From positions 1 to 64,000 of the forward strand of contig JAKUQR010000009.1 in NCBI GenBank assembly GCA_022450155.1: a DNA stretch of 64,000 nucleotides, read 5' to 3'. Every line of letters begins with the position of its first letter. Position 1 is the stretch's first letter. Source of the stretch: Gammaproteobacteria bacterium. Lineage in GTDB: Bacteria; Pseudomonadota; Gammaproteobacteria; Arenicellales; UBA868. The translations under genes and the position numbers were made by a program. Positions 1,211 through 19,877 of the stretch are shown here, piece after piece. Below the pieces are notes generated by a model. It was given only the letters and a program-made list of their open reading frames with translations. It did not search any database and was not told the origin of the DNA.

Positions 1211-1225
1211 CGCCACTGGGGCCGG

Positions 1226-3063: not shown

Positions 3064-3073
3064 CGTATAGGTC

Positions 3074-4444
3074 CTAGAGATCGTAAATATCTCGCCATGG
3101 GCGCGATTCATAAGCGATGCGTTTGATGTTGATCAGATGCAGGGCGGTCACATTGTCCGAGACGATTGAGCCGGATGCTGTGCCAGTGCCCAGCATGAAG
3201 CTCGGTTCCAGATCGGTGGAAAATCCCATGCCTCCGGTAATGGCGGGTGTATTGACCAGCAATCGCCCCACCGGTAACTGACCAAACTGGGCCACGGTAT
3301 CTGGATCGTCACAATAAGTCACCGCAGTATGTCCCCAGCCGCCCAACTCAACGACCTGCCGACACAGGTCGTAGCCGCTGGCGACATCACGTGCTTCGTA
3401 CCAGGCAAGTACTGGATTAAGTTTCTCCATAGACAGCGGTATGTGGCGACCGATTTCGGTCTGTTCTGACAGCAGCACCCGCGTATTTGGGGGCAATGTG
3501 ATATCGGCGAGTTGTGCAAGGCGATGGGCTGACTGACCAACGCTGCCAATGCGAATGGATAATTCCTCCGTAAATATCACGTCGGCCAGTCGTGCCGATT
3601 CTTCCACAGTACAGAAATACCCCCCTCTGGACTTGATCTCATAGCGCAACTGTTGAGCAATGCCCTGGTCAGCGATCACCGACTGTTCGGATACACAGGC
3701 AGTGCCGTAGTCAAAAGATTTAGACACCATAATCTGCTCAGCAATTTCATCGAGTTCATGGGCTTTGGAACTGTGAACATAGACAGGAACGTTACCGGGC
3801 CCCACCGCGAGCGTCGGTTTGCCGGATGAATAGGCGGCGCGCACCATAGCACTGCCGCCGGTTGCCATGACCACAGAAGTGCGTCGATGTCGCATCAGTT
3901 CAGCAGTGCCTTCCTGCGTCACGTGTGGTAGGCATTGAATCAGGCCGCGGGGTGCGCCCATCTGTTCAGCAGCTTGTGCCATGATGCGGATTGTTTCCAG
4001 CCCGCACTGTACCCCGCGAGGATGGGGCGCGCAGACGATGGCGTTGCCGGCTTTGATTGCGGACAATACTTTATAAATGATCGTCGAAGTTGGGTTGGTC
4101 ACCGGAATGAGCGCGGCAACCACACCCATCGGTTCGCCCACAGCAACAATTTTTGTGACATCGTCCTGCCATAGAACGCCCAGCGTGCGCACATTGCGCA
4201 GCCAGTCCGCGACCGTCAGGCAGTTAAAGAGGTTTTTGAGCCGCTTGTCTTCGGCATTTCCGTAACCAGTTTCCTCTGCAGCCAACAACCCCAGACGTGC
4301 ACATTCGGGCTCTATGGCCGATGACACGGTTTGAACCATCTCATCAATCAACGAGACATCAGTACCGCGAAATTTGCGAAAAGCTTCCCAGGCCAACTCA
4401 GCCGCGCGCCGGGCTTCGTAGATTGACAGTAAGTCAGCGTCCAT
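3074..4444 (-). CDS. CoA-acylating aldehyde dehydrogenase (PduP/EutE family)
   Basis: 456 residues of the acylating aldehyde dehydrogenase family, which converts an aldehyde, NAD and CoA to acyl-CoA and NADH. The catalytic Cys250 sits in FDYGTACVSEQ, as in PduP/EutE-type enzymes, and VTNPTS (115-120) lies in the cofactor-binding region. The N-terminus starts directly with the family helix and has no obvious encapsulation peptide. Between shell genes this is the hallmark enzyme of a metabolosome: it implies that a volatile or toxic aldehyde is made and consumed inside the shell. Its start shares one base with the stop of the gene before it, so translation is coupled. Confidence 0.92.
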   Translation of the reverse strand: MDADLLSIYEARRAAELAWEAFRKFRGTDVSLIDEMVQTVSSAIEPECARLGLLAAEETGYGNAEDKRLKNLFNCLTVADWLRNVRTLGVLWQDDVTKIVAVGEPMGVVAALIPVTNPTSTIIYKVLSAIKAGNAIVCAPHPRGVQCGLETIRIMAQAAEQMGAPRGLIQCLPHVTQEGTAELMRHRRTSVVMATGGSAMVRAAYSSGKPTLAVGPGNVPVYVHSSKAHELDEIAEQIMVSKSFDYGTACVSEQSVIADQGIAQQLRYEIKSRGGYFCTVEESARLADVIFTEELSIRIGSVGQSAHRLAQLADITLPPNTRVLLSEQTEIGRHIPLSMEKLNPVLAWYEARDVASGYDLCRQVVELGGWGHTAVTYCDDPDTVAQFGQLPVGRLLVNTPAITGGMGFSTDLEPSFMLGTGTASGSIVSDNVTALHLINIKRIAYESRPWRDIYDL

Positions 4445-5631
4445 TAAGTAGCCACCGTCATTGCGTCCAGCTGTGTTCGTATGCTATCTAAGTCTGTATC
4501 GACGAAGCCCATGTTATCGAGCCGGCGTCCGGCATGGAGCAGGTCACCGCCAATGCTCTGGTGGGCGAGTTCGATCATTGCGGACGTTGCCGGTACAGGC
4601 AATCCCGCCAACTGTGCTGCCGATTGCAGCGGCACCAGCGAGCCCATTGTCGCACAGCGGATCAGATGATCCGCCTGATTTGGCTGAGGTACTGGGCGGA
4701 CCATCGTGCCAGTCATCGTACCGGCGAAACGATCCAGCCACTCGTCGGTCGAGGGCAGATTACGTACCCCCCAACGTGCAGCAACTGCACGTCGTTCATC
4801 CGCCAGTTTTGTCACGATGCGACTGTGCCGCTCACCGAGAAGAGTCCGGAAAACGCGTCGTTCGACCAGGGGTTCTGCGCCGGCAGGCAGCGGCGTTTGG
4901 CCGTCTTGTAGGGCCAGACCGCCCAGTGTCAAGCCCACGACTTCGACCAGGCCGCTGGCATCGCCAAAACCGGAATGAAGTACGCTGGCGACGGGCACCA
5001 GATCGGGTATCAGTGCGGCCATTGTGCGCAGGACACCCGTGTTTCCACTGGGCAACACCGCTGTGGTGACTGGTCCTGTTTCGGTCAGATAGAGCGTCCC
5101 GCCACGGTCATCGACCCAGAAAGGTAGAGACTGAAGCTCGATAATTGATATGGCAGCAGAATTACCGCCCACCCTGAGGTACCAAGCGGTTTCAACCGCC
5201 CCAAGAGTTCGGGCCGGCGCAATCACGACCACCTGACCGTCGTTCAGATGTCCACCCAACACCATGGCGTAGGTACGCTGCTTGAGAACCGGACCGGTGA
5301 CAAAGATGGCATCGGCGCCGAGAACGGCGTCATCCAGGCTGGATGACAGCGTGATGGACGGTACCTCGGACTGATTTATCTGATACGTCCCGACCGGACC
5401 GCTGCCACGAATGGTAATTGCACCGCGTTGCCTGAGGGGGTCCAGATCCCGGGCATAGGCGGAGAACAGGGTGACGTCGCAGCCGGCAGCCAGACACAGA
5501 CAAGCCAGCGTACACCCCTCTGCATTCGCGCCGAGTACGGTGATCCTGTTCAAAGGATGCTCATCGGCGGGTGTAACCGCGGGCGTCGTAGCGAAAGCCC
5601 CAACGACTTGCTGGATCTCTGTGGTACTCAT
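4444..5631 (-). CDS. Opine/octopine-dehydrogenase-like NAD(P) protein with putative encapsulation peptide
   Basis: 395 residues. A Rossmann fold begins at residue 30 (ITVLGANAEG); the usual second glycine of GxGxxG is replaced by Asn. The later part, with a conserved-looking His in LHSGFGDASG and a C-terminal helical domain, fits the octopine/nopaline dehydrogenase superfamily. Residues 1-28 lie outside the fold: a short amphipathic helix (TEIQQVVGAFA) followed by a Pro/Thr/Ala linker, the layout of BMC encapsulation peptides. Family members join or split a secondary amine between an amino acid and an oxo-acid, so an N-alkyl amino acid is a possible substrate. An aldehyde-reducing or structural role cannot be excluded. 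An 84-bp gap separates it from BMC-H. Confidence 0.68.
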   Translation of the reverse strand: MSTTEIQQVVGAFATTPAVTPADEHPLNRITVLGANAEGCTLACLCLAAGCDVTLFSAYARDLDPLRQRGAITIRGSGPVGTYQINQSEVPSITLSSSLDDAVLGADAIFVTGPVLKQRTYAMVLGGHLNDGQVVVIAPARTLGAVETAWYLRVGGNSAAISIIELQSLPFWVDDRGGTLYLTETGPVTTAVLPSGNTGVLRTMAALIPDLVPVASVLHSGFGDASGLVEVVGLTLGGLALQDGQTPLPAGAEPLVERRVFRTLLGERHSRIVTKLADERRAVAARWGVRNLPSTDEWLDRFAGTMTGTMVRPVPQPNQADHLIRCATMGSLVPLQSAAQLAGLPVPATSAMIELAHQSIGGDLLHAGRRLDNMGFVDTDLDSIRTQLDAMTVAT

Positions 5632-5715
5632 AAAAGCGGTACGACCTGCCCCGCTCAGGATTGACCGGTTGGCAGGTCAGTCAGAGTCTTGAACGGGCGG
5701 TGCGAACTGCGTCGC

Positions 5716-6012
5716 TCAGCCCAGCGACGGCAGCAGGCCTTCGATTTCCGCGTCTGGCCTCGGGATTACATGGACAGCAACCAGTTCCCCCACCTTGTTG
5801 GCTGCAACGGCACCGGCATCGGTCGCAGCTTTGACTGCACCGACCTCGCCTCTGACCAGCACTGAAACCAGGCCGCCACCTGCCTTGACGTGGCCTATGA
5901 TGGTGACATTTGCAGCCTTGACCATTGCGTCCGCTGCTTCTATTGCCGGGACAACGCCCCGGGTTTCAATCATCCCCAGGGCGACATGCCCCGGACCCAA
6001 TTTTTCTGCCAT
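5716..6012 (-). CDS. BMC-H hexameric shell protein
   Basis: 98 residues, a single BMC domain. [20 protein letters not shown] is the family signature at the N-terminus, and [14 protein letters not shown] forms the strand and loop that line the hexamer pore, here with a glycine triplet. Proteins of this type tile the facets of the microcompartment. It is the only BMC-H in the window, so with one BMC-T and one BMC-P the shell would be unusually simple. It lies 13 bases after the BMC-P stop in the same operon. Confidence 0.95.
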
Positions 6013-6025
6013 GGTGTAGTCCTCG

Positions 6026-6322
6026 TTAGTCAGAATTTACCTGGTAAGTCAGTTGATTGTTTACAGTAATTGCGTCTACCAGCATAACAGCTGTTTCGTC
6101 AGTCGGAACGCCGCTGGTTTCTGATGATATTCGAGCTGCCGAACCCGACGCCAGTAAGACCATATCACCAACTCCGGCACCACAGGTATCAGTAATCACC
6201 TGGCTCGGGTTCAGTACGGCCCCACTGGCATCTACAATGTCCACAAGTAGCAGTTTTTGGCCCACCAGGCGGTCGTCTTTGATAGTACCGGTTACTGAAC
6301 CGATGACTCGGGCGATTTTCAT
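6026..6322 (-). CDS. BMC-P pentameric vertex protein (EutN/CcmL family)
   Basis: 98 residues of the EutN/CcmL/CsoS4 family, whose pentamers cap the vertices of the shell. The start [19 protein letters not shown] and the later [17 protein letters not shown] are family signatures. The ATG overlaps the stop of the GlnA-like gene by one base (TGATG), so ligase and vertex protein are translated together. That overlap is the strongest structural link in the sequence between gamma-glutamyl ligation and the microcompartment. Confidence 0.95.
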
Positions 6323-7617
6323 CAGAAATTTTCCAAGTACCGCTCAATTTCAACGGGCGTGACCTGGTTGGCGATGAACTCTATTTCCCGTTCCGACTGC
6401 TGAATCAGGATCTCGAGTAAATCCGCCCCCAGTACCTCGGCCATGAGACTAGATTCGCGGGCGAGTGCCACAGCCGTTGCAAGGTCAGTCGGTATGGGTT
6501 GATGTTCTTGTTCCTCATATGCGTTGCCTGTGGTTTCAGCCGTCGGTTCGAGCTCGTTCTCTATCCCAGCAAGACCGGCAGCGATTTCCAGCGCCAGTAA
6601 GAGATAGGGATTGCAATCTGCCGAACCGTCCCGTTTTTCTACCCGGACTGCGCTGTCGTTGCCCAGGATGACACGCAGTCCAACCGTTCGGTTATCGACC
6701 CCCCAAGCGTTGTTTATCGGGCAGAAAGAGTAGGGTTGGCGGCGGCGGTAGGCGTTCGGTGTTGTGGCAGACACCATGGACATTTCCACCATGTGTTTTT
6801 GCAGACCAGCCAGGTAGTGGCGTCCAAGCTTTGACAGTGCGCCATTGTCAGCCATCTGGTTTTTGCCGTCTCGCCACAATGAGTGATGAACGTGGAACCC
6901 ATTACCGGACTCGGCGAAAAAGGGTTTGGACATGAACGTTGCATGGTACCCGTGCGTGTTTCCCAATTCTTTGACAAGCCCTCTGAACGTGACCACGCGG
7001 TCCGCAGCAGTCAGTGCTTCGTCGTATCGAATGTTGACTTCAACCTGACCAGCCGCGTATTCCGGGTTGGACTGCTCGATGGGTATACCGACTGCGGTCA
7101 AATGACGGCGAATCGGTCCCAACACATGTTCGAGCTCAGCTGCCCTGGGCAGACCATAAACCTGGATACCGCGATCTCTGGGTTTCAAAGTTTCTTTGTC
7201 CAGCAGGTAGAACTCAAGTTCAGTACCGATACGCACCTCATACTCCATGTCAGCAGCTTTTTGTAAAACTCTCACAAGCGCAGCCCGCGGGTCTATCGCG
7301 AGTGGTTGATGATCTGCGCCTACGACTTCGGCGAACGAATAGACGACGCCCTCTTCCCAGGGGATCGGGTGGACCTCACCAATGGGCATGACATACATGT
7401 CCGGGTAGCCAGTGTCCCAATTCGTATAGGGGGTGTCCCACACATCGCAGGTCATATCGATGGCAAAGGTGGCGTTCGACATCGCCATTCCGGACTCACA
7501 GATATTGGCCCAGTTTTCCGCCGGGATGCGTTTACCCCTTAACAACCCGTTCAAGTCACCCATTCCGAGCACCACGGTATGGACACCCTCTGGAAGCGGT
7601 TTATGTGCCTGGCCCAT
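6322..7617 (-). CDS. Glutamine-synthetase-like gamma-glutamyl-amine ligase
   Basis: 431 residues of the GlnA superfamily in the PuuA/GMAS/IpuC-like group, which join the gamma-carboxyl of glutamate to an amine using ATP. Metal and substrate motifs are present: GTELEFYLLD near 131, NPEYAAGQVEVN near 180, NGFHVHHSLW near 240 and RVEKRDGSADCNPYL near 330. The extra loops and adenylylation tyrosine of housekeeping glutamine synthetase are not evident. It is the first gene of the BMC operon. Close mgsABC-like genes (8906-11948) make a gamma-glutamylmethylamide-synthetase-like role plausible, but the aldehyde dehydrogenase suggests an amine of two or more carbons such as ethylamine, a propylamine or an amino alcohol. 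The substrate is inferred. Confidence 0.85.
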   Translation of the reverse strand: MGQAHKPLPEGVHTVVLGMGDLNGLLRGKRIPAENWANICESGMAMSNATFAIDMTCDVWDTPYTNWDTGYPDMYVMPIGEVHPIPWEEGVVYSFAEVVGADHQPLAIDPRAALVRVLQKAADMEYEVRIGTELEFYLLDKETLKPRDRGIQVYGLPRAAELEHVLGPIRRHLTAVGIPIEQSNPEYAAGQVEVNIRYDEALTAADRVVTFRGLVKELGNTHGYHATFMSKPFFAESGNGFHVHHSLWRDGKNQMADNGALSKLGRHYLAGLQKHMVEMSMVSATTPNAYRRRQPYSFCPINNAWGVDNRTVGLRVILGNDSAVRVEKRDGSADCNPYLLLALEIAAGLAGIENELEPTAETTGNAYEEQEHQPIPTDLATAVALARESSLMAEVLGADLLEILIQQSEREIEFIANQVTPVEIERYLENF

Positions 7618-7655
7618 GTGCGTGAATCTCCAAGTTTGAGTCCCTAAGCTTACGC

Positions 7656-7684
7656 ATTAAATTCAGATTTGCACGTGAGTACAA
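7656..7684 (-). promoter_or_regulatory. Candidate promoter of the BMC operon
   Basis: On the minus strand TTGTAC (7679-7684) and TTTAAT (7656-7661) are separated by 17 bases and precede the ligase start by about 40 bases. The regulator-like site at 7695-7709 lies just upstream of this -35 box, where an activator would sit. Assigned from sequence only. Confidence 0.4.
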
Positions 7685-7694
7685 CCAGACTAAT

Positions 7695-7709
7695 TGTATA
7701 CTGTATTCA
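7695..7709. promoter_or_regulatory. Candidate GntR operator, copy 1 (divergent ligase/oxidase promoters)
   Basis: TGTATACTGTATTCA differs at only two of 15 positions from the site at 11969-11983. It lies in the 95-bp intergenic region between the divergent BMC operon and the flavin oxidase gene, so one site could control both. Confidence 0.6.
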
Positions 7710-7736
7710 TCAATGCCGAGCAATGGTGAGTTGACA

Positions 7737-8882
7737 GTGCCCACGTCTACACATGCTGTGGTAGTTGGTGCGGGAATTGCTGGTGTAATGACCGCCCGCT
7801 ACCTCCGACGACGAGGCTGCAGCGTGATGCTGGTCGATCGCTGGGAGCCCGGTCATTCGCGCGCATCATCTTCCGACTACAACCGGATTCTGCGCGCTAT
7901 TCATGGCAGTGATGAGATGTACACCCGCTGGGTGCGTGAAGCGCGGCTGCGCTGGATGGAGCTGGAACAGGAGCTCAACACAGAACTCTACATCGAGTGC
8001 GGTGCGCTGATTCTGGCCGAAGAAGGTCACAGCACCTGGGAAGAGGTCACCATGCCCACGTTCGACAAACTGGGTGTTCCCTATGTGCGTGTCGGGCCTG
8101 ATGAATTACCGGTACGATTTCCGCAGTTTGATTTTCGCAAAGTGGCTTTCGGGTTATGGGAGCCTGAAGCCGGTATGGTGCTAGCCCATCGTGCGGTTAC
8201 TGAAACTTTTAAGCAGTTCCTGCGTGAAGGGGGTCAGTTTCGCAGGGGTCGCGTGATCACAGACGAAACCGAGACACCGATTTTGGATGGAAAACCGCTG
8301 CCCGCTGATCTGGTGGTTATGTGTTGTGGGTCGTGGCTTGCATACCTGTTTCGCCAGACCTTAGGTGCCATGCTGAAGGTGATCCGACAGGATATTGTTT
8401 ACACGTCGACACCTGATGGTGATCGGTCATTTGACGCTGATCAGATGCCCTGTTTTGTGGATCATGGGTATGGGGCTTACGGAGTCCCGTCGGTCTACGG
8501 CTGGGGGGTTAAGGCTGCAATCGCCTGGCATGCCACAGATATTGATCTGGATGATGAGGATCGGGTGGTCGACCAGTCGGCTATTGCCCGGTCACGGCAG
8601 TACTGGGCTTACCGGTTTCCACGCCTTGCACATGAAATTGTGATCGACCAGAAAGCTTGTCATATCTCGATGACGCCGGACACGCACTTCATCATAGATT
8701 TCCACCCTCGGCACAGCAACGTGCTGATCGTCGGCGGGTGTTCAGGCCACCTGTTTAAACACGGCCCGATGCTTGGAGATTATGTTGCCGGGGTTGGTTT
8801 ACAGGAGTGGGGAACAGCGCCGCGGTTCAAGATCGGCCCGCGGACTTCGATGCCGATGAGCGAATCGCCTTCGGGACGTTAG
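7737..8882 (+). CDS. FAD-dependent amine oxidase, monomeric sarcosine oxidase / MTOX family
   Basis: D-amino-acid-oxidase-fold flavoprotein of 381 residues. GAGIAG with the following VDRWEPGH binds the FAD. Near the C-terminus CHISMTPDTHFIID and GHLFKHGP match the region where monomeric sarcosine oxidase holds FAD covalently (Cys315 and Lys348 there). The family oxidises secondary amines such as N-methylglycine, giving an amino acid, an aldehyde and hydrogen peroxide. Here an N-alkylglutamate is the likely substrate, releasing glutamate and the aldehyde used in the BMC. The GTG at 7737 is preferred because GGTGAG lies 6 bases upstream and the protein then begins just before the FAD fold; an ATG at 7713 has no ribosome-binding site. 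Divergent from the BMC operon. Confidence 0.8.
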   Translation: MPTSTHAVVVGAGIAGVMTARYLRRRGCSVMLVDRWEPGHSRASSSDYNRILRAIHGSDEMYTRWVREARLRWMELEQELNTELYIECGALILAEEGHSTWEEVTMPTFDKLGVPYVRVGPDELPVRFPQFDFRKVAFGLWEPEAGMVLAHRAVTETFKQFLREGGQFRRGRVITDETETPILDGKPLPADLVVMCCGSWLAYLFRQTLGAMLKVIRQDIVYTSTPDGDRSFDADQMPCFVDHGYGAYGVPSVYGWGVKAAIAWHATDIDLDDEDRVVDQSAIARSRQYWAYRFPRLAHEIVIDQKACHISMTPDTHFIIDFHPRHSNVLIVGGCSGHLFKHGPMLGDYVAGVGLQEWGTAPRFKIGPRTSMPMSESPSGR

Positions 8883-8905
8883 CCACATCGTTTCGGTACG
8901 TTTTC

Positions 8906-10327
8906 CTACCAGCTGTAGGGTCGGTCAATACCGGCGAGCTTGACGCCAGTGAAGGCTGATGCTTCCAGTGACATAGCTCTGAGGTCTTCCACTTCAAGGT
9001 TGTGGACATTGGATTTACCGCAGGCTTTAGCCAGCAGCGAGACTTCCATGGTCATCGCTGTCAGGAATCGCGCCACACGTTCGGATGCAGCTGGAACGTC
9101 CACGCGTTTTTCCAACTCAGGGTCCTGTGTTGCCACGCCAACTGGACATAGACCGGTATGGCAGTGGTGACATCGACCCGGTGCGGTGCCCAGCGCCGCA
9201 TAGTCATCAAAGTAGCGGGGTGAATTACAGCCCAGGGCGACGAGACCGGCTGTACCGATCATTACCGCATCGGCGCCCAGTGCGAGGCATTTGGCAACGT
9301 CCGTGCCGGAACGGATGCCGCCGGCCGCGACCAGTGAGACTTCGTCAGTCTTGCCGCAGTCATCCAGTGCCTCACGCGCAGCGCGAATCGCAGAAATAAG
9401 CGGTATGCCGGTATGGTCGAGTAGCAGTTCTGGGGACGCCCCGGTGCCGCCTTCAGCACCATCGACGACGATGACGTCCACCCCGGCTTTGGCTGCGATG
9501 GCAACATCGTAACGTGGCCGGGTAGCGCCCATCTTGAGAAAAATCGGCACCTGGTAATTGGTTGCCTCGCGCAGTTCCTCGATTTTGACCTGCATGTCGT
9601 CGGCGCCTAGAAAATCCGGGTGGCGGACGGTGGACCGCTGATCAACACCTTCAGGCAGAGAACGCATCGCGGCCACTCTGTCTGAGACTTTCATCCCCAG
9701 CAGCACACCGCCGGTGCCGGGTTTGGCCCCCTGCCCCACGACCAGCTCAATCCCATCCGCCATGCGCAGATGCTCGAGGTCGAGCATGTAGCGCGACGGG
9801 GTCATTTGGTAGACCAGTGTGCTGGAGGCTTGTCGCTCTTCTTCCAGCATGCCCCCTTCGCCGGTGCACGTCATACTGCCAACTTTGGATGCGCCGTATC
9901 CCAGTGCAGCCTTCGCCGGCGCGGACAGCGCACCGAACGACATGGATGCAATGTAAATAGGAATGTCCAGTTCAATCGGTTTTTCAACCAGACCGGGACG
10001 ATTGCCCAAAACGGTGCGCGTGTCACAGCTTTCCCGGTAACCCTCAAGCGGCAGGCGGGTCATGGTGGCCGGTACGAATGTCAGGTCATCGAACGTGGGC
10101 ATCCGGTGGTTGAAGGTATTAAAGCCTCGGATTTGGTAACGGCCCAGGCGAGACAGTGCATGCACCTCGGAGATAGATTGGGGTGTCCAACGGACAGAAC
10201 CACCTTTTTCATAAGACGAAGGGACACCGGCTGGCCGGTTAGCATCGGCGCCGTCTGTCATTGCGACAGCGTCTTCTGCGGGTGTCGCAAACGGATAGCT
10301 ATAGGGTGTTTTCAGATCATCAGCCAT
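8906..10327 (-). CDS. FMN/Fe-S glutamate-synthase-domain protein (MgsC/GlxD-like)
   Basis: 473 residues corresponding to the central FMN-binding domain of GltB as a free protein. GGIRSGTDVAKCLALGAD binds FMN phosphate and CHHCHTGLCPVG near residue 400 supplies the 3Fe-4S ligands. Free-standing copies with separate amidotransferase-like and GXGXG subunits occur as MgsABC, which makes N-methylglutamate in methylamine users, and as GlxBCD of unknown function. It is the third gene of its operon and overlaps the GXGXG gene by 16 bases. With a GlnA-like ligase nearby, the MgsC reading is favoured: transfer of an alkylamine onto 2-oxoglutarate or glutamate. A GlxD-type role is the main alternative. 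Confidence 0.85.
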   Translation of the reverse strand: MADDLKTPYSYPFATPAEDAVAMTDGADANRPAGVPSSYEKGGSVRWTPQSISEVHALSRLGRYQIRGFNTFNHRMPTFDDLTFVPATMTRLPLEGYRESCDTRTVLGNRPGLVEKPIELDIPIYIASMSFGALSAPAKAALGYGASKVGSMTCTGEGGMLEEERQASSTLVYQMTPSRYMLDLEHLRMADGIELVVGQGAKPGTGGVLLGMKVSDRVAAMRSLPEGVDQRSTVRHPDFLGADDMQVKIEELREATNYQVPIFLKMGATRPRYDVAIAAKAGVDVIVVDGAEGGTGASPELLLDHTGIPLISAIRAAREALDDCGKTDEVSLVAAGGIRSGTDVAKCLALGADAVMIGTAGLVALGCNSPRYFDDYAALGTAPGRCHHCHTGLCPVGVATQDPELEKRVDVPAASERVARFLTAMTMEVSLLAKACGKSNVHNLEVEDLRAMSLEASAFTGVKLAGIDRPYSW

Positions 10328-11004
10328 GCGCTTGCATCTCGACTTTCAAAGTGCCATAGCCGCTGCGCCGATACGATTTTCTGCCAAGAGCGGCTGCCGT
10401 TATCCAGGCCCCTGCTGGCGAGCAGACCCTCGATTTGTTCAATTTCATCGTCAGTCGGTTGCGCGATTTTTGAATCCACACCCAAAGACGCAATGGGGCC
10501 TGCGATCCAGACTTCACCGCCCCAGAGGGAATCAGCACACGCCTCGTCGGCGCCACCCAGCGCGATGATGCGGCCGGCGTGTGCCATAAACCCCGACAGA
10601 TAGCCGATCGTGCCTTCGACAATAATGTCGCCGCCTTTCATGGAGATACCACAGCGAGGGCCGGCATCCCCTTTGACGTGAATCAGACCACCGCGCATCG
10701 AGGCCCCGAGGCTCATACCGGCATAGCCGTTTATCGTGATTTCGCCGCTGGCCATGGCCTCTCCCGCGGCCCAGCCGGCGTTGTGCGATACCGTGATGTG
10801 GGCGCCGTTGTTGAGACCGCCACAGTAGTACCCGACACTGCCCTCGAAATGAACCTCTGCACCAGCAGGCAGGCCGATGCCTAGATTATGGCGGGAACGG
10901 GTATCAGTCACGGTGACGGGCTGGCCGGATTCGATTCCAGCCCGAATCGCCTGGTTGCACTCGCGTAGCGGTCGGTTGGCAACCCGAACTTCGTGTCCGT
11001 TCAT
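10312..11004 (-). CDS. GXGXG (GltB C-terminal-like) subunit (MgsB/GlxC-like)
   Basis: 230 residues forming the right-handed beta-helix of the glutamate synthase C-terminus, with the characteristic run of glycine-rich turns such as GGLNNG, GYAGMSLG and GDAGPRCG. In MgsABC the matching subunit is structural and joins the amidotransferase-like and FMN subunits. The start overlaps the stop of the upstream GATase gene by 4 bases and its end overlaps the FMN subunit gene, so the three proteins are made as a coupled set. Confidence 0.85.
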   Translation of the reverse strand: MNGHEVRVANRPLRECNQAIRAGIESGQPVTVTDTRSRHNLGIGLPAGAEVHFEGSVGYYCGGLNNGAHITVSHNAGWAAGEAMASGEITINGYAGMSLGASMRGGLIHVKGDAGPRCGISMKGGDIIVEGTIGYLSGFMAHAGRIIALGGADEACADSLWGGEVWIAGPIASLGVDSKIAQPTDDEIEQIEGLLASRGLDNGSRSWQKIVSAQRLWHFESRDASAWLMI

Positions 11005-11948
11005 GCTGCACGGTCCAGCGATGAGTGAGTCTGCCAGGTCTGCGTCAGGCTGGGACCGTCAAAGTTGACCACTTCGACTTCGTCAAGGTGAATTGTTCGT
11101 ACAGCTTGCTCTTCGGTTGCGATCGAGAGTGTACCGTTGCTGTCTACCGCCACCAGCGGCTTAATGGCCCAACGATCTTTTGCGAATCCCAGCCGGTCGT
11201 GGTTGCTGTACAGAAAGGTGAAGCAGCCATCGATCTCCGTCAGCGAACGCTTCAATGCATCAGCCTGGGTCTCGCCTTGGCTCATACGGTCGGATATCCA
11301 TACCGCCAGCAGCTCACTGTCGTTTTCAGTCATGAAACGGTAGCCTTTTCGTTCCAGTCGTGCCCGCCAGGTGTAGTAATCGGTAATCTGGCCGTTGTGA
11401 ACAATGGCGACATCGGGAAAAGGTCGGGCCCAGAATGGATGGCTGGCAGTCGGTGACACATCCGATTCCGTCGCCATCCGAGCATGGCCCAGTCCGTGTG
11501 AACCAATGAAATCACGGATGTTGTGTTTTTCCGCGACCTCTGCGGCACCGCCGAGGTCCTTTACAATTTCCAGAGCCCGGCCGACAGACTGCACTTCAAT
11601 TCGATCAGAATATTCGTCGATCTGATGCACCCAATCTGTGACAGACGTGGGCTCACGAATCTCCATGCGCACAGACACATGATCTGAATCAGCCTCGTCA
11701 TGGGTTGGGTCGCTCAAAAAGTCGCTGCCGTGCTCACGCAGAAGGCCGAGAAAAAATTCAAGATCTGCCGACAGATTCTGTCGTCGGGCAGTTATCGCCC
11801 GCACAATATAACCGGTCTCAAGGGGTTTGCCGTAAAGCGCAAAGCCGGTTGAATCCGCACCACGGTGGCGCTGGGCGTGCATCAGCTTGACGAGGTCTGC
11901 GCCAACCCGACCGGGTTCAGCCAGAATTCTGCCTGCTATACCACACAT
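11001..11948 (-). CDS. Class II glutamine-amidotransferase-like subunit (MgsA/GlxB-like)
   Basis: 315 residues of the Ntn-hydrolase amidotransferase domain found at the N-terminus of glutamate synthase. The protein starts MCGIAG, so Cys2 is placed to be the N-terminal nucleophile after Met removal; GLGHARMATESD and VHNGQITDY are further family motifs. It is the first gene of the three-gene operon in the same order as mgsABC. In that system this subunit is thought to release the amine from a gamma-glutamyl amide rather than ammonia from glutamine. A TATAAT box and a copy of the shared operator lie immediately upstream. Confidence 0.85.
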   Translation of the reverse strand: MCGIAGRILAEPGRVGADLVKLMHAQRHRGADSTGFALYGKPLETGYIVRAITARRQNLSADLEFFLGLLREHGSDFLSDPTHDEADSDHVSVRMEIREPTSVTDWVHQIDEYSDRIEVQSVGRALEIVKDLGGAAEVAEKHNIRDFIGSHGLGHARMATESDVSPTASHPFWARPFPDVAIVHNGQITDYYTWRARLERKGYRFMTENDSELLAVWISDRMSQGETQADALKRSLTEIDGCFTFLYSNHDRLGFAKDRWAIKPLVAVDSNGTLSIATEEQAVRTIHLDEVEVVNFDGPSLTQTWQTHSSLDRAA

Positions 11949-11968
11949 TATGCTGCCCTCGCTGCTTT

Positions 11969-11983
11969 GTATACTGAATACAC
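11969..11983. promoter_or_regulatory. Candidate GntR operator, copy 2 (mgs-like operon)
   Basis: TGTATACTGAATACA is the exact reverse complement of the site at 13271-13285. It lies between a TATAAT -10 box (minus strand, 11986-11991) and the start codon at 11948, covering the expected transcription start, which is a repressor position. Confidence 0.7.
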
Positions 11984-11985
11984 TG

Positions 11986-11991
11986 ATTATA
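11986..11991 (-). promoter_or_regulatory. -10 box of the mgs-like operon
   Basis: A perfect TATAAT on the minus strand lies 38 bases before the GATase start codon and 2 bases from the operator. No good -35 hexamer is visible at 16-18 bases, so the promoter may need an activator or be weak. Confidence 0.45.
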
Positions 11992-12067
11992 GGCCCTGCC
12001 TAATGTGGATCATAGAGATGCCGTCAAACAACGGGTACAGCCTGAACGCTGCCAGTCCGGCTCGTGC

Positions 12068-12733
12068 TCAGTGTCTTTCCTCATGAAGCCAACGAACATG
12101 GTTATGCAGGCCCTCGCGGATGTGTGCCACCATGGCGTTCACTGCCTCGTCTACGTTCCCCGTCTTAATTTGGTCAAGCAATAACAGGTGCTGTTCTCTT
12201 TTGCCTTGATTGTCTGGTATCGGGTAAGCCGCAAAGCTGCGGATAGAAATGCCCCTATTCCAGATGCTGTCAAACATGTCGAGCAGTATCCCATTACCGG
12301 TTTGGGCGACGATAGTTCGATGGATCTTTCGATTGGCGTGAAAGTGTTCTTCTTTGCGGATGGATTTCAATTCCATCTCAGATCTGACCGCTGCTTCAAT
12401 GTTCTGTGCTTGTTCTTGGGAAAGCGCTCCGGCTAGGAGTTTGGCTGCGAATCCTTCGACGGCCTCTCGGGCGAGGTACAGATCTTTTATCTCCTGTTCG
12501 GTAATGTTGCGGATCTGAAAGCCGCCGCGTCCCGCAGCCTCCAGCACGCCTTCGCGTTCAAGCCGCAAAAAAGCCTCTCGGACCGGGGTACGGCTGACAT
12601 CGATCTGACTGGCGATGGTTTCCTGAATCAGGCGCTCACCGGGCATTATCTCACCCGACAGAATCGCAGAGAGGATCTGTTCATAGACGTTATCAGCCAG
12701 TCGGGTTCGTTTTTGGGCAAGTCGAGTGAACAT
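12068..12733 (-). CDS. GntR-family regulator, FadR/FCD subfamily
   Basis: 221 residues. The N-terminal winged helix (about 10-80) includes RLIQETIASQIDVSRTPVRE, a typical GntR recognition region, and the C-terminal all-helical FCD domain (about 90-215) carries histidines suited to metal and ligand binding. It sits in the middle of the cassette, divergent from the RidA gene and next to the mgs-like operon. It is the only regulator in the cassette and the obvious candidate to bind the shared 15-bp site. Only a partial half-site (CAGTAT, 12759-12764) is visible before its own start, so strong autoregulation is not evident. Confidence 0.9.
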   Translation of the reverse strand: MFTRLAQKRTRLADNVYEQILSAILSGEIMPGERLIQETIASQIDVSRTPVREAFLRLEREGVLEAAGRGGFQIRNITEQEIKDLYLAREAVEGFAAKLLAGALSQEQAQNIEAAVRSEMELKSIRKEEHFHANRKIHRTIVAQTGNGILLDMFDSIWNRGISIRSFAAYPIPDNQGKREQHLLLLDQIKTGNVDEAVNAMVAHIREGLHNHVRWLHEERH

Positions 12734-12791
12734 CGTGACGATTCTCGGTAGCGTGTCTCAGTATTTTAGATTGCGTTAGACTGACGAGATT

Positions 12792-13208
12792 ATGGTGATC
12801 ATGTCAGCCTCAGGCGGCGGCCGGTTTGAGAAGATCGGTTCCTACGTCCGGGCTAAACGTATTGGCCCGTTCGTCTTTGTAGCCGGCACAACAGCTATTG
12901 AACCCAGTGGCAAACTGCACGCCCCAGGAGATACCTATGCCCAGACGATTTACGCGTTTGAGCGGATCACCGATGCACTGGCTCGTGTCGGTGCTGAGAT
13001 TAAGCATGTGGTGAGAACCCGGGCCTATCTCACCGACATGAAAGATGCCGGCGGCTTTGTTCGGGCACACGGGGAGATTTTTGCAGGCATCGAGCCCGTC
13101 AGTACCGCGATTGAAGCCGGATTGACCACGCCCGGCATGATGGTGGAAATTGAAGTAGATGCCATAATTCATGATGTGAATGGGCAGATAACGCTCGACG
13201 GTGCCTGA
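12792..13208 (+). CDS. RidA/YjgF/YER057c-family protein
   Basis: 138 residues of the Rid family. Members hydrolyse reactive imine or enamine intermediates to oxo compounds and ammonia. RTRAYLTDM contains the conserved Arg, and EIEVDAII near the end carries the conserved Glu. The ATG at 12792 has only a weak ribosome-binding site, and an ATG at 12801 is an alternative. Inside a cassette that oxidises secondary amines, a Rid protein fits as a catalyst that clears imines released by the flavin oxidase or dehydrogenase. Confidence 0.85.
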   Translation: MVIMSASGGGRFEKIGSYVRAKRIGPFVFVAGTTAIEPSGKLHAPGDTYAQTIYAFERITDALARVGAEIKHVVRTRAYLTDMKDAGGFVRAHGEIFAGIEPVSTAIEAGLTTPGMMVEIEVDAIIHDVNGQITLDGA

Positions 13209-13233
13209 AGATAGTTTTAGCAATTCAACTGAA

Positions 13234-13261
13234 TTGACAACGAATACGGTTGTGGGATACT
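13234..13261 (+). promoter_or_regulatory. Promoter of the ABC importer operon
   Basis: A perfect TTGACA (13234-13239) is followed after 16 bases by GATACT (13256-13261). The shared operator begins 10 bases downstream, covering the likely transcription start, as expected for a repressor block. Confidence 0.5.
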
Positions 13262-13270
13262 TGTTCGGTC

Positions 13271-13285
13271 TGTATTCAGTATACA
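13271..13285. promoter_or_regulatory. Candidate GntR operator, copy 3 (ABC importer)
   Basis: TGTATTCAGTATACA is identical, in reverse orientation, to the site before the mgs-like operon. It lies between the promoter at 13234-13261 and the binding-protein gene. Confidence 0.7.
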
Positions 13286-13332: not shown

Positions 13333-14649
13333 ATGAAAATTCAACGATTTATTATGACTTGGGTGGCGAGTCTATTGATGGCCGCGGGTATGCTCACAGG
13401 TCTGTCCGCACAGGCTGCAAAAGACCCAGTCATCATCGGCTACATCGGTTCATTCGATACCGATACGGGTAAAAGCACGATCCGCGGTGCAGAAATTGCC
13501 ATCGAGGAACTCAACGCCGCCGGTGGGGTCCTGGGCGGCCGACCGATCAAGCTGGTCAAAGCCGATACCCGCGAGGACGTGATCGAGGGCATCAAGGCCT
13601 ACGAGTACCTGGCCGAGACGGAGAAGGTTGAATTCATCATCTCCGGCAGTATTGATGATGTGTCCCTGGGCTGGCTCCCGCGCATGGCCGAGTACCGAAT
13701 CCCCACGCTGGATACGTGGACGTCGTACGTCGGCATCATCGACATGGTGGTCAATGAATACGACAAGTACAAGATGTACTTCATGAATGTCGCCAACGAT
13801 TTCGCGTTGGCAACGCTGTACGTTGACTTTGGTAAAGACATCCTGGCTGACAAGATGGGGTGGAAGACCACCGTCGTGATGCAGGAAGACACGGCATTTG
13901 GCGGTGGTGTGTTTGAGTTGGTTGATCAGATGCTGGCCCCTGAAGCTGGGATCAAGATTATTGATCACATCGTCTATGACACCAACACGGTCGATTTTTC
14001 GCCGATTTTCAACAAAGCGGTAAAGTCGAAACCTGATTTCATCTACCTGATCTCTTCGGTCAGAAGTCAGGTACCCTCGTCGCAGTACGTCAAGCTGCAG
14101 GTGCCAGTGCCGATGACCGGCATCAACGTCGCGGCCTTTGGCAAGGACTTCTGGAACGACACCGGCCAGATGGGCGGCGGCACGTCTACCCTGAGCCCAA
14201 TTCCGTCGGTGGGTTTTGCTATGGACGACCGGACCCAGGCATTCGTGGACAAGTATGAAGCCAAGTACGGTAACAGTCGTCCGATCTTTCCCCACTTCAA
14301 CGGGTTCAATGCCTATTACGGGATCTACAACGCGTTCAATGCCGCAGAACGTGCCGGGGGTTTCGCGCCGCTTGACGCGTGGGTCACCGAGATGGAAAAT
14401 GAAGACCTGAAGATCTACAAGGACGGCAAGTTGTGGCTGCGTTACGCTTTCTGGAAGCCCGGTGAGATTGAACCGAGAACCCAGCGGGAATACACCCACA
14501 ACATCAAGTTCGATATCACCCAGCCGCTGGATGACGGTGCGCCGTCCATGGTCGTCATACAGTGGTACGAAGACGGAACGACAGCAGTTGTCTATCCCGA
14601 AAAATACAAGACGGGCGAATTTACTGTGCCGTCCTGGATTAAGCAGTGA
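13333..14649 (+). CDS. Periplasmic substrate-binding protein, branched-chain amino acid/amide/urea type
   Basis: 438 residues. A signal peptide ends near AQAA (about 31), followed by a type I periplasmic-binding fold (VIIGYIGSFD, then about 400 residues). A strong AGGAGG ribosome-binding site precedes the ATG. Proteins of this family feed Liv-type importers and bind leucine-type amino acids, short amides, urea or related small molecules. Within this cassette it is the likely receptor for the amine or amide that is degraded. A terminator follows the gene, so it can be made in excess over the permeases. Confidence 0.88.
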   Translation: MKIQRFIMTWVASLLMAAGMLTGLSAQAAKDPVIIGYIGSFDTDTGKSTIRGAEIAIEELNAAGGVLGGRPIKLVKADTREDVIEGIKAYEYLAETEKVEFIISGSIDDVSLGWLPRMAEYRIPTLDTWTSYVGIIDMVVNEYDKYKMYFMNVANDFALATLYVDFGKDILADKMGWKTTVVMQEDTAFGGGVFELVDQMLAPEAGIKIIDHIVYDTNTVDFSPIFNKAVKSKPDFIYLISSVRSQVPSSQYVKLQVPVPMTGINVAAFGKDFWNDTGQMGGGTSTLSPIPSVGFAMDDRTQAFVDKYEAKYGNSRPIFPHFNGFNAYYGIYNAFNAAERAGGFAPLDAWVTEMENEDLKIYKDGKLWLRYAFWKPGEIEPRTQREYTHNIKFDITQPLDDGAPSMVVIQWYEDGTTAVVYPEKYKTGEFTVPSWIKQ

Positions 14650-14673
14650 AAGCAGAATGCTGAGATGATAACG

Positions 14674-14703
14674 GCAGGGGCCTTCGCGGGCCCCTGCTTT
14701 TTT
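14674..14703 (+). terminator. Rho-independent terminator after the binding-protein gene
   Basis: GCAGGGGCC (14674-14682) pairs with GGCCCCTGC (14689-14697) across a 6-base loop and is followed by six T. It sits between the binding-protein gene and the permeases of the same importer, so partial read-through would set a higher level for the binding protein. Confidence 0.88.
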
Positions 14704-14760
14704 GGGCACAAGGGAACTGACGGTTGACCTCTGGTTGTCACGTCGGGCCGGTGGCCGGGA

Positions 14761-15624
14761 GTGTTCAAGACAATGGGCCAGATCATTATCCAGGGCTTTC
14801 TGCTGAGCGGTCTTTATGCACTGATCGCGGTCGGCTTCACAATGATATTCAGCGTGGGCCGGGTGCTGAACCTCGCCTATGGGGTGTACATCATGCTTGG
14901 CGGCTACGTGTATTTTGTCGCTGTCCAGATGTATTCGCTGCCCAAGGTGCCGAGTTTCCTTTTTGCGGCGCTCGCAGGCGTGATTTTCGGTGTGCTCACC
15001 TACCAGCTGCTGGTCAAGCGCCTGCAAGGCGACGCCATTGCAGTAGAGATTTCAACGCTGATCCTGGCCGTGGTAATGCAGGCCGCCATTATCGTGGTCT
15101 TCTCTCCAGCACCCAGAAGCATGTGGCCGTTGGTGCCTGGTGTGATCTATGTCTACGATGTTGCGGTGCAGAAGAACATCCTGCTGGCGACAGTCGTCAG
15201 CTGGGTGGTGCTCGGCGGACTGATGGTCTTCGTCCATAAAACACATATTGGCCGGGCAATCCGGGCGGTGTCCATGGACCCCAAGGGTGCCTTGATTTCT
15301 GGAATTGATCCCCAGCGGATCAACCTGATCACCTGGGGACTGTCGGGCGCGTTGGGTGCGATCGCCGGCGTGTTCTTCGCGACCTATACGCAGCTGGATC
15401 CCGGTATGTGGGTGTTTCCTCTGATCACTGCGGTGGCTGTCGTCATTGTCGGGGGTATAGGGAGCATTGTTGGCAGTCTGATTGCCGCCCATATCATCGG
15501 CTTCATGGAGACGATCACCACCACGCTGATTGCGGCAGAACTGCGGGGTGTATTCACCATGTTGCTGATCATCGTGGTCCTGGCGGTTGCGCCTAAAGGC
15601 CTATTCGGCAAAGCAGAGCTCTGA
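14761..15624 (+). CDS. ABC importer permease, LivH type
   Basis: 287 residues with about eight membrane helices, of the LivH/UrtB permease family that forms half of the transmembrane channel of branched-chain-type importers. GLYALIAVGFTMIFSVGRVL at the start and AVVIVGGIGSIVGSLIAAHI towards the end are family signatures. The start is GTG at 14761; an in-frame ATG at 14773 is the alternative. First gene after the internal terminator and followed directly by the LivM-type permease. Confidence 0.9.
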   Translation: MFKTMGQIIIQGFLLSGLYALIAVGFTMIFSVGRVLNLAYGVYIMLGGYVYFVAVQMYSLPKVPSFLFAALAGVIFGVLTYQLLVKRLQGDAIAVEISTLILAVVMQAAIIVVFSPAPRSMWPLVPGVIYVYDVAVQKNILLATVVSWVVLGGLMVFVHKTHIGRAIRAVSMDPKGALISGIDPQRINLITWGLSGALGAIAGVFFATYTQLDPGMWVFPLITAVAVVIVGGIGSIVGSLIAAHIIGFMETITTTLIAAELRGVFTMLLIIVVLAVAPKGLFGKAEL

Positions 15625-15633
15625 TCGCCCGGC

Positions 15634-16590
15634 ATGTGGCTTCTAGGCCAGCTTCGGTGGTGGTTGTTGTTCGCGCTGGGGATGAGCTTATTGCCGCTGT
15701 TCATCTCCCCGGGGACCCTGCGCATTTTCATATTTGCGAATTTCCTCGCCATGTTTGCCATGAGCTGGGACATTCTGTCGGGCCGGACGGGCTATATCAG
15801 CTTCGGCCATCCTTTTCTGATTGGCATCGCCGGCTACACCACGGCGATGTTGACCTACCACCTGAACTGGCCGCTCTATATCACGATTCCGACGGCAGTG
15901 GTGACGACCATGATCGGGGGTACCCTATTCTTTCTGCCGGCCTTGAGGATCCGGGGGACTTACTTCGCGCTGGTGACACTCGCGTTCATGGAGTTGATGT
16001 ATCACTCCATGCAGGTAGTTCAGCCCAAGCTGACCGGGGGAACCCGGGGTTTGTCCGGCCTGCCGACGCTGGTCTCAGGCGCCGTGCCCAACTACTACCT
16101 GTCGTTTCTGGTCATGTTCGCCATCGGTGTGGGCTTGTGGTTGTTGATCAGGACCCGGCTGGGGATTGCGCTGAGCGCGATCAGGATGGACGAGGATGCG
16201 GTCAGGAGCTCAGGATTGAATACCACGCGCCTGAAACTGTTTGCCTTCATGGTCAGCGCGATGGTGGCTGGCATTGCCGGGGCGCTGTATACCCACTACC
16301 TCGGCTCGATCGCACCGCGTGGCATTTTTGAGATCAATTTCCTGTTCACGATCCTGGTGGCTGCCCTGCTGGGTGGGGCCGGGACGATCATCGGTCCGAT
16401 CATCGGCGCGTATTTCCTGACGTTTTTACTCGAATTGCTGCGCCCCTATATTCCCGGCGCAGGTCGCTACCTGATCTACGGCGTGATCGCCCTGGTCTTG
16501 TACTATTACGTGCCCAAAGGGTTATACAGTCTCTTCGAAAGGTTGCGAGAACGATTTTTCAGACCACGCCCGGATCCTCAAAGTGACTGA
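15634..16590 (+). CDS. ABC importer permease, LivM type
   Basis: 318 residues, multi-spanning, of the LivM/UrtC permease family. SGRTGYISFGHPFLIGIAGY near residue 50 and GGAGTIIGPIIGAY near 245 are typical. Forms the second half of the channel with the LivH-type partner 9 bases upstream, and overlaps the ATPase gene downstream by 8 bases. Confidence 0.92.
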   Translation: MWLLGQLRWWLLFALGMSLLPLFISPGTLRIFIFANFLAMFAMSWDILSGRTGYISFGHPFLIGIAGYTTAMLTYHLNWPLYITIPTAVVTTMIGGTLFFLPALRIRGTYFALVTLAFMELMYHSMQVVQPKLTGGTRGLSGLPTLVSGAVPNYYLSFLVMFAIGVGLWLLIRTRLGIALSAIRMDEDAVRSSGLNTTRLKLFAFMVSAMVAGIAGALYTHYLGSIAPRGIFEINFLFTILVAALLGGAGTIIGPIIGAYFLTFLLELLRPYIPGAGRYLIYGVIALVLYYYVPKGLYSLFERLRERFFRPRPDPQSD

Positions 16591-17311
16591 TCTGCTCGAG
16601 GTTCGGGACCTGACCAGGACCTTCGGTGGCCTGCGCGCGGTGAACGGGCTGAGTTTTCACGTCGGCGAAGGCGAGACTGTCGGCCTGATCGGACCCAACG
16701 GTGCCGGCAAGACGACCGTGTTCAACCTGATCATGAACGAGCTCCGACCGGATTCCGGTGAGATCTTTTTCAAAGGGGAAGCGATCTCGCGTTACCCCAC
16801 TCACGAGCGTGTGAAGCTCGGCATTGCCCGGACGTACCAGGTGCCGCGGCCGTTCGCGGAGATGACGGTAGGCGAAAACATCCGGGTCGGTATGCTGCCC
16901 GACAACCTCTGGAAGATGGTGACTGAGGAAGCAGAAGAGGCACTGGAGACAGAAATCGGCAGAAGTGTGGGATTTAACAATCACCAGATAGCACAGCGAC
17001 CCAGCGAACTCGCGATGGGGGATCTCAGAAGGCTGGAACTGGCCCGTACGCTGGCTGTCCAGCCGTCGTTGCTGCTGCTGGACGAAGTGTTCGCGGGCCT
17101 GACGCTTGGCGAAATCGACCAGATCTCAGAACTGCTGGTCGAGCGAAAGAAGCATGGCTTGACCTATGTGATGGTCAGTCACGATCTGAGATCAATGGCA
17201 CCGCTGGTGGATCGGGTAATCGCTATATCTTTTGGCGAGATCATCACTGAAGGTACCTTTAACGAGGTGGTTAATAATAAAACAGTTCAGGAGGCTTATC
17301 TGGGACAGTGA
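16583..17311 (+). CDS. ABC importer ATPase, LivG type
   Basis: 242 residues: Walker A GPNGAGKTT, a divergent signature region (ELAMGDLRRLELA), Walker B LLLLDEVFAG, and the switch His in MVSHDLR. LivG-type subunits energise branched-chain-type importers. GTG start overlapping the permease stop by 8 bases. The Walker B Asp-Glu pair is intact, so it should be active. Confidence 0.92.
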   Translation: MTDLLEVRDLTRTFGGLRAVNGLSFHVGEGETVGLIGPNGAGKTTVFNLIMNELRPDSGEIFFKGEAISRYPTHERVKLGIARTYQVPRPFAEMTVGENIRVGMLPDNLWKMVTEEAEEALETEIGRSVGFNNHQIAQRPSELAMGDLRRLELARTLAVQPSLLLLDEVFAGLTLGEIDQISELLVERKKHGLTYVMVSHDLRSMAPLVDRVIAISFGEIITEGTFNEVVNNKTVQEAYLGQ

Positions 17312-17348
17312 TACCTGGTCCAGGATAAGCGCACTCCACAGTATTAGC

Positions 17349-19798: not shown

Positions 19799-19877
19799 AA
19801 AGTTCCTTCCTCCTAGAAGAATCAATTTCTGTGAGCGTGCCGTTAGGCTGTGCTCAAGAATTACTTAGACTACGCCA

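Follow-up and report, generated by a model that had tools for sequence, protein, structure and literature searches.

The stretch of DNA analysed here, hereafter the window, comprises 64,000 nucleotides of the Gammaproteobacteria bacterium assembly GCA_022450155.1 (contig JAKUQR010000009.1, positions 1 to 64,000), and contains a bacterial microcompartment (BMC) operon together with an oxidase gene, an mgsABC-like operon, an ATP-binding cassette (ABC) importer and the gene of a transcription factor with GntR and FCD domains (gntR). Three copies of one 15-bp motif lie beside these operons, and they are very probably the operators of this single pathway-specific FCD-type GntR regulator, through which the operons would be induced jointly when the ligand releases the protein; we infer binding, repression and ligand from the sequence.

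The features of the locus are collected in Table 1. The BMC operon is read leftward and the oxidase gene rightward, diverging around operator 1, and gntR is located between operators 2 and 3. The stretch 452-11948 holds a glutamine-synthetase-like (GS-like) ligase, an FAD-dependent oxidase, an opine-dehydrogenase-like protein, a EutE-like aldehyde dehydrogenase, a malate dehydrogenase (MDH)-like protein and mgsABC, in the last of which the Pfam domains class-II GATase, GXGXG and Glu_synthase were found. The GS-like protein is presumably a gamma-glutamyl-amide ligase acting on a substrate that we infer, and the Peptidase C26 family includes the gamma-glutamyl-amide hydrolases. As a guess from gene content, the GS-like ligase, the oxidase, the nearby C26 protein and the EutE-like aldehyde dehydrogenase suggest a gamma-glutamylated amine as the compound handled by the pathway. 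The ATG of the oxidase at 7713 reads CTG in the close relatives G001 and G003; as it is not conserved, GTG 7737 is the more probable start of the oxidase, and operator 1 would then end 27 bp upstream of the start, not 3. The gene set of the BMC locus is largely kept in several families (genomes G055, G060, G042, G249, G353 and G472; G000 is the window's own genome, and L041 is a metagenome-assembled genome named Rhodobacteraceae).

Table 1. Genes, operators and promoter elements of the microcompartment locus in the window
Feature	Position	Strand	Remarks
Peptidase C26 family protein	452-1210	+	convergent with BMC operon; no operator upstream
Malate/lactate dehydrogenase-like protein	1226-2431	-	profile matches
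Second BMC shell protein, probably trimer type	2428-3111	-	profile matches
Aldehyde dehydrogenase	3074-4444	-	closest model acetylating (EutE-like), below its cut-off
Opine-dehydrogenase-like protein	4444-5631	-	weak Pfam match, below gathering score
BMC-H shell protein	5716-6012	-	Pfam
EutN pentamer	6026-6322	-	Pfam
GS-like protein, first gene of BMC operon	6322-7617	-	profile matches
Probable BMC-operon promoter	7656-7684	-	-35 TTGTAC 7679-7684, 17 bp, -10 TTTAAT 7656-7661; read from sequence
Operator 1, TGTATACTGTATTCA	7695-7709	+	in gap of divergent BMC operon and oxidase gene
FAD-dependent oxidase (DAO family)	7713-8882	+	Pfam; probable true start GTG 7737
mgsABC-like operon	8906-11948	-	mgsA 11001-11948, mgsB 10312-11004, mgsC 8906-10327; Pfam
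Operator 2, TGTATACTGAATACA	11968-11982	+	19 bp upstream of mgsA start codon; directly 3' of TATAAT -10
mgsA -10 element TATAAT	11986-11991	-	3 bp from operator 2
GntR/FCD transcription factor, presumed binder	12068-12733	-	Pfam GntR and FCD
RidA-family protein	12792-13208	+	no operator upstream
Predicted importer promoter TTGACA-16-GATACT	13234-13261	+	promoter scan; ends nine bases before operator 3
Operator 3, exact reverse complement of operator 2	13271-13285	-	just 3' of predicted importer promoter
ABC importer, branched-chain amino acid/urea type	13333-18053	+	binding protein, two permeases, two ATPases

The original prediction, made from the letters of the window, had claimed three copies of one operator, and all three places were found. 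The two-mismatch copy between the BMC operon and the oxidase gene is indeed present, with its boxes GTATAC at 7696-7701 and GTATTC at 7703-7708, and so is the exact reverse complement before the importer; the place given for TGTATACTGAATACA, 11969-11983, was one base too high. Since each site is near-palindromic, its orientation carries little meaning. When up to three mismatches were allowed, six strand matches were obtained in the window, that is, the three places on both strands, and 100 dinucleotide shuffles of the window gave a mean of 0.64 matches and a maximum of 4. At the same tolerance, no operator was found upstream of gntR, the RidA gene or the C26 gene. In the whole 3.2-Mb genome, TGTATACTGWATWCA occurs with 0 mismatches at exactly these three places and nowhere with 1 mismatch. 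A weight matrix built from the operators of other families, whose training sites were themselves found using the window motif, gives the three window sites 24.8-26.5 and the next-best place in the window 7.7, and the third-best score was not equalled in any of 1000 column shuffles.

Nine further matches to TGTATACTGWATWCA with 2 mismatches occur elsewhere in the genome; given 6 strand matches of a reversed-pattern control, they were judged to be background. Two of them make up a 28-bp inverted repeat, AGTATACTGTATATATATACAGTATACT, at C13:18122-18149 of G000 (L105 1123-1150), which looks like two operators back to back and has no cluster gene adjoining; some 70 bp upstream of it ends an open frame whose translation, judged by reading it, resembles a membrane transporter. 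A one-mismatch match common to G001, G003 and G009 has the same surroundings in both genomes inspected (G009 and G001) and was rejected as an operator.

The scan of related genomes for the motif beside homologous genes, which had been proposed together with the prediction, was run, and the motif is present; its absence before orthologous operons, named beforehand as the refuting outcome, did not occur. A site at the oxidase/GS gap, the GS gene or mgsA was found in 12 other genomes, namely four of the window's family, seven of three other families in its class, and the one Rhodobacteraceae genome. The counterpart of operator 1 is located in the oxidase/GS gap of eight other genomes (G001, G003, G055, G060, G042, G452, G353 and G249); in G007 the operator lies upstream of the GS gene, and in G472, where the BMC cluster is cut by contig ends, the operator of the oxidase/GS gap was found by the motif itself. 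The counterpart of operator 2 stands before mgsA in G001, G002, G003, G007, G249, G353 and L041. The oxidase/GS gap of G452 and the gntR/mgsA gap of G353 were read after the pattern had been fixed, and both contain the site.

Moreover, the operators track operon architecture across genomes. In G055, G060 and G042, GS is followed in one and the same orientation by the BMC genes, RidA, importer, gntR and mgsABC, and the sole cluster operator at up to two mismatches is that of the oxidase/GS gap. Where mgsABC stands apart (the window's own family, G249, G353 and L041), an operator is found upstream of mgsA; in the 18.9 kb read of L041, mgsABC and gntR are present and BMC and GS genes are not. Counting the window's own, 14 genomes possess this GntR protein or a relative of at least 41% identity, and the motif occurs at the locus in 13 of them; TGWATWCWGWATWCA is matched perfectly at least once in 11, and with one mismatch in the other two (G042 and G452).

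Because a pattern derived from the window had led to most of the outside operators, a de novo search was run on gaps of other families. On 8 gaps, the top 15-mers were TGTATACTGTATTCA, i.e., the site at 7695 of the window, tied with TGTATACTGTATACA, TGTATACAGTATACA and TGAATACTGTATACA, with a score of 98 against 71.2 +/- 0.9 (maximum 73) in 100 shuffles. The same motif was obtained on 11 gaps with 30 shuffles, the smaller set having been formed by dropping G472, which was found by the motif, and two M. loti gaps; all gaps were delimited by gene ends.

The whole collection comprises 23 operators from 15 genomes, gathered with a pattern that fixes the invariant letters and allows at most one mismatch. 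Columns G2, A4, T5, C7, G9, A11, T12 and C14 are invariant and make up two boxes GNATNC, ideally GTATAC, at a 7-bp pitch, with both boxes of this form in 23/23 operators and an intact GTATAC (GT-N2-AC) in 20/23. In the window's family there are two boxes per operator; a third box (5 or 6 of 6 matches) occurs in G055, G060, G042, G452, G249 (mgsA), G472 and L041, and weaker fourth or fifth boxes in G060, G042 and G452. A palindromic operator with a GT-N2/3-AC core, which is a trait of the FadR/FCD subfamily, and two or more closely spaced boxes, which is a NanR-type trait, are thus both found here. The spacing may reflect one dimer over 15 bp or one dimer per box, and is compatible with both.

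The window protein has a GntR winged helix-turn-helix (HTH) domain (PF00392, E=3.8e-17, above the gathering score) and an FCD domain (PF07729, E=7.9e-20, profile positions 1-124 of 125). N134, H138, H182 and H204 are invariant in 13 clade proteins, and we take them to be the Asp/Asn and three His of the metal site of many FCD domains. The HTH match begins at residue 12, so that the protein does not have the 32-residue N-terminal extension by which NanR-type regulators gain cooperativity, and the NCBIfam NanR model on the window protein stays far below its cut-off. Relatives of at least 41% identity were found in G001, G003, G007, G009 (a fragment), G047, G055, G060, G042, G452, G249, G353, L041 and on a Mesorhizobium loti plasmid. 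Of the motif loci, only those of G002 and G472 show no relative. Over the HTH, the 12 motif-locus relatives share 53-96% identity with the window protein, and 12 paralogues 29-38%; the HTH residues R34, Q37, E38 and L56 are invariant in the clade (13 proteins) and occur in 33, 0, 0 and 0% of the 12 paralogues, respectively. In the order of G249 (4 genomes), GntR relatives were met only in G249 and G353. A GntR search of 398 genomes of the phylum gave only the window's own match; no more than 7 candidates per genome were scored, so members were possibly missed.

In 109 genomes of the window's order, a perfect TGWATWCWGWATWCA was found in 16. With a genome called GntR-positive when it has a relative at E<=1e-28, perfect matches occur in 7/10 GntR-positive genomes versus 9/99 others (Fisher p=3.6e-5). 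In the GntR-positive genomes, 12/12 perfect matches stand at the GntR locus (two overlap in G055). The 10 matches of the other genomes include one before mgsA in G002, one in the oxidase/GS gap of G472 and one at an SBP5 operon of G472; the remaining seven fall within open frames that adjoin no cluster gene, except one ATP-binding protein that is 28% like the importer ATPases. The open-frame criterion (stop-to-stop, at least 100 codons) is weak evidence of coding, and it also flags the cluster sites of G002 and G472, because the frames extend upstream of the start. Among the unrelated places, the sites in L109, L112 and L113 are near the upstream end of their frames. Taken together, the phylogenetic footprints, the de novo motif test and the co-occurrence of the regulator support the proposal of one regulon under the local GntR/FCD protein.

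As for the sign of control, the arrangement TATAAT-NNN-operator is kept at mgsA in five genomes (G000, G001, G002, G003 and G007). Because TATAAT stands three bases before the operator, mgsA would start inside the operator, and repression by blocking is therefore suggested; for the same reason of position, repression may be assumed at the importer, whose predicted promoter lies next to operator 3. The promoter scan returned 2 sites versus 3.4 in shuffles, and was hence used for position only. Repression at mgsA and the importer, as first proposed, is in this way supported by promoter geometry only. On the BMC side, ten bases separate the operator from TTGTAC-17-TTTAAT in G000 and G003, from which G001 differs by TTGCAC and G007 by ATTAAT; the claim that this site lies upstream of the -35 was right, and the arrangement is kept in four genomes. 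The centre of operator 1 falls near -53 of this promoter, that is, upstream of the -35, which therefore permits either sign at the BMC operon. A promoter overlapping operator 1 (TTGCTC-17-TATACA, by eye) was given less weight than the conserved TTGTAC-17-TTTAAT.

According to the favoured explanation, each operator would be a pair of FadR-type boxes spaced at a 7-bp pitch, one of them GTATAC and the other decayed to GAATAC or GTATTC, and the GntR protein without ligand would occupy these sites. At mgsA, with the start inside the operator, and at the importer, with the operator beside the predicted start, the bound protein would block RNA polymerase. The protein would be released by its ligand, for which an amine-derived carboxylate, for instance the gamma-glutamyl conjugate of the substrate, is the likeliest candidate, and joint induction of the oxidase, the importer, the mgs-like enzymes and both the enzymes and the shell of the BMC would follow. 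The single site between the divergent oxidase and BMC operons would serve both, with a BMC-side effect of either sign. A bolder version, less likely than not, is that an undescribed regulator clade reads gamma-glutamylated amines, that two to four or five GTATAC-type boxes at the 7-bp pitch couple import, gamma-glutamyl activation, oxidation and microcompartment assembly, and that the number of boxes tunes the tightness of shut-off.

Several observations weigh against one regulon under the local protein. The Fisher test of the order-wide contrast ignores genome relatedness and so overstates independence; most outside sites were found by a search with the window motif, and the gaps of the de novo search, picked after the motif hits were known, are not a blind sample. 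Operator 3 has a counterpart in no other genome examined: upstream of the G003 importer (64% identical) there is no match at up to three mismatches, and in the gap preceding the importer of G055, G060, G042 and G472 none at up to two. In the window, gntR itself has no operator before it. G009, the exception among the 14 genomes, has a GntR fragment at a contig end and no perfect motif match, and in G047 the motif precedes neither GS nor mgs genes but adjoins an AraC-type gene some 1.1 kb away from gntR. G002 and G472, finally, carry operators without a close GntR relative in sight. These two genomes are what speaks for the idea that the operators belong to another regulator encoded elsewhere and that GntR is a passenger, which we regard as very improbable: the contig of G472 ends inside the cluster, and in G002, which is 81% complete and has no close GntR relative and no GS relative at E<=1e-80, the match is at a contig end and the adjoining genes are missing. 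In addition, a relative is present even at loci without BMC or mgs genes, and Q37, E38 and L56 are common to 13/13 clade proteins and 0/12 paralogues. Far less credible still is the reading that an AT-rich palindrome is present three times by chance or through a repeat; in its favour are the shortness of the motif and the unrelated places of 7/22 perfect matches in the order-wide scan, but the shuffles, the genome-wide uniqueness, the de novo recovery in other families, the matrix gap of 24.8 versus 7.7 and the conservation before orthologous operons all argue against it.

The alternative closest to the favoured explanation keeps the same regulator and gives it a dual role, as repressor of mgsA, importer and oxidase and as activator of the BMC operon from near -53, the latter having been suggested with a hedge in the original prediction. 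It is rather unlikely, though it has the conserved spacing in its favour: the operator, the 10 bp and the TTGTAC-17-TTTAAT-type promoter are kept together in four genomes, and the same site falls in the oxidase leader, where repression would result. The positions of class I and class II activators do not usually include a centre near -53. Nor is the arrangement shown to be general, as other families have no clear -35/-10 pair for the GS gene by eye, and a shared divergent site of the kind described by Suvorova et al. needs no opposite signs.

One regulon under the local protein, the favoured reading, can be compared with several known systems. In E. coli, NanR binds a (GGTATA)3 operator, with two or three close GGTATA repeats and up to three dimers, one to each box and cooperatively, and this repeat binding works through its N-terminal extension, according to PMC8012715. 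The window system resembles it in its FCD-type GntR protein, in two or three close TATA-containing boxes, in an operator downstream of the polymerase site and in a three-operon regulon of one pathway, but differs in that the boxes here are palindromic GTATAC at a 7-bp pitch and the protein has no such extension. For FadR-subfamily regulators (GntR, HpxS, HypR, MdcY, PrpR and UxuR), PMC4494728 reports GT-N2-AC sites, and weaker extra half-sites 7-12 nt from the site centres. GTATAC is such a GT-N2-AC box, and the divergent gap with one shared site is also alike, whereas at least two GNATNC boxes at a 7-bp pitch in every operator and another target pathway distinguish the present case from what is described there.

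With regard to the pathway, the isopropylamine and putrescine gamma-glutamyl pathways (ipu/puu) consist of a GS-like ligase, an oxidation step and a C26 hydrolase. The same three elements are met in the window, and the M. loti cluster has ligase, C26 hydrolase and P450; what sets the window cluster apart from ipu/puu is that it also has a BMC shell, mgsABC, an ABC importer and an aldehyde dehydrogenase of acylating type. For the GntR-family regulator of the RMM1 microcompartment locus, we know of no operator. As in the window, a GntR-family protein is encoded within that BMC locus, for which an amino-alcohol substrate has been proposed by Axen et al. 2014 (PMC4207490). The same paper gives the MIC1 locus an aldehyde dehydrogenase, a lactate/malate dehydrogenase-type enzyme, two alcohol dehydrogenases, a hydrolase, a phosphatase and an MreB-like protein, with no phosphotransacylase; on this description only the core, aldehyde dehydrogenase plus MDH-like protein, is alike in the window, where 20 proteins were scanned and gave no phosphotransacylase, zinc alcohol dehydrogenase, phosphatase or MreB-like match. 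Such genes stand beside BMC-T relatives in Methylibium and Rhodococcus. On plasmids of these two (L106 and L107), the BMC-T relatives are 49-53% identical, and the BMC loci around them also encode EutJ, HAD hydrolase, malate dehydrogenase and pyruvate-phosphate-dikinase; the annotation of the stretch shows neither a GS nor a GntR gene.

In the literature within reach, which left RegPrecise and the BMC-catalogue supplements outside, the regulon is not described; of five operator strings, one recurs, in 2 papers on barley and Epstein-Barr virus that were judged unrelated. A local FCD-type regulon is of a well-known kind, and this member, itself well supported, is new as far as the searches reach. 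As a clean case of an already well-understood regulator class, it is useful to specialists rather than startling. Its value is that the sequence by itself shows which genes belong to a microcompartment pathway of which little has been described: the GS-like ligase, FAD oxidase, mgsABC and importer share the operator with the shell genes, and in the window RidA, the C26 hydrolase and gntR do not. The motif is specific enough that clusters are located without a protein query (G472 and G002), and it can therefore be used as a probe.

The operator is also shared with a P450-containing gamma-glutamyl cluster of Mesorhizobium, which is a clue to the substrate class and the inducer. On the M. loti plasmid, the motif is located in a P450/hydrolase gap 12 kb from gntR, and a one-mismatch copy stands before gntR. 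Among 72,556 plasmids, a GntR relative (E<=1e-28) and a GS relative (E<=1e-120) each occur in one record, which is the same for both; further plasmid searches again led to this M. loti record alone. Both M. loti and G047 have GntR, operator and GS-like ligase, and the stretches read of them contain neither BMC nor mgs genes. The stretch L102 14992-29813 (plasmid pML2037 of M. loti NZP2037) carries P450/2Fe-2S genes, an APC permease, a GS-like ligase, a C26 hydrolase, the related GntR and two operators, and this cluster is probably a gamma-glutamyl amine pathway without a microcompartment.

Some further observations concern transport genes and the surroundings. In G472, an SBP5-type ABC importer operon has a second perfect operator (L117 3264-3278) some 55 bp upstream of its probable start, and in the window an SBP5 gene (18191-19825) adjoins the cluster without an operator. 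In G002 (L055), mgsA and its operator adjoin a fragment of an importer ATPase, and the place lacks gntR, RidA and the remaining importer genes, through either deletion or assembly. Elsewhere in the window, at 25972-30610, three adjacent genes match the domains of Fer4/pyridine-nucleotide oxidoreductase, 2-oxoacid:ferredoxin oxidoreductase and TPP enzymes.

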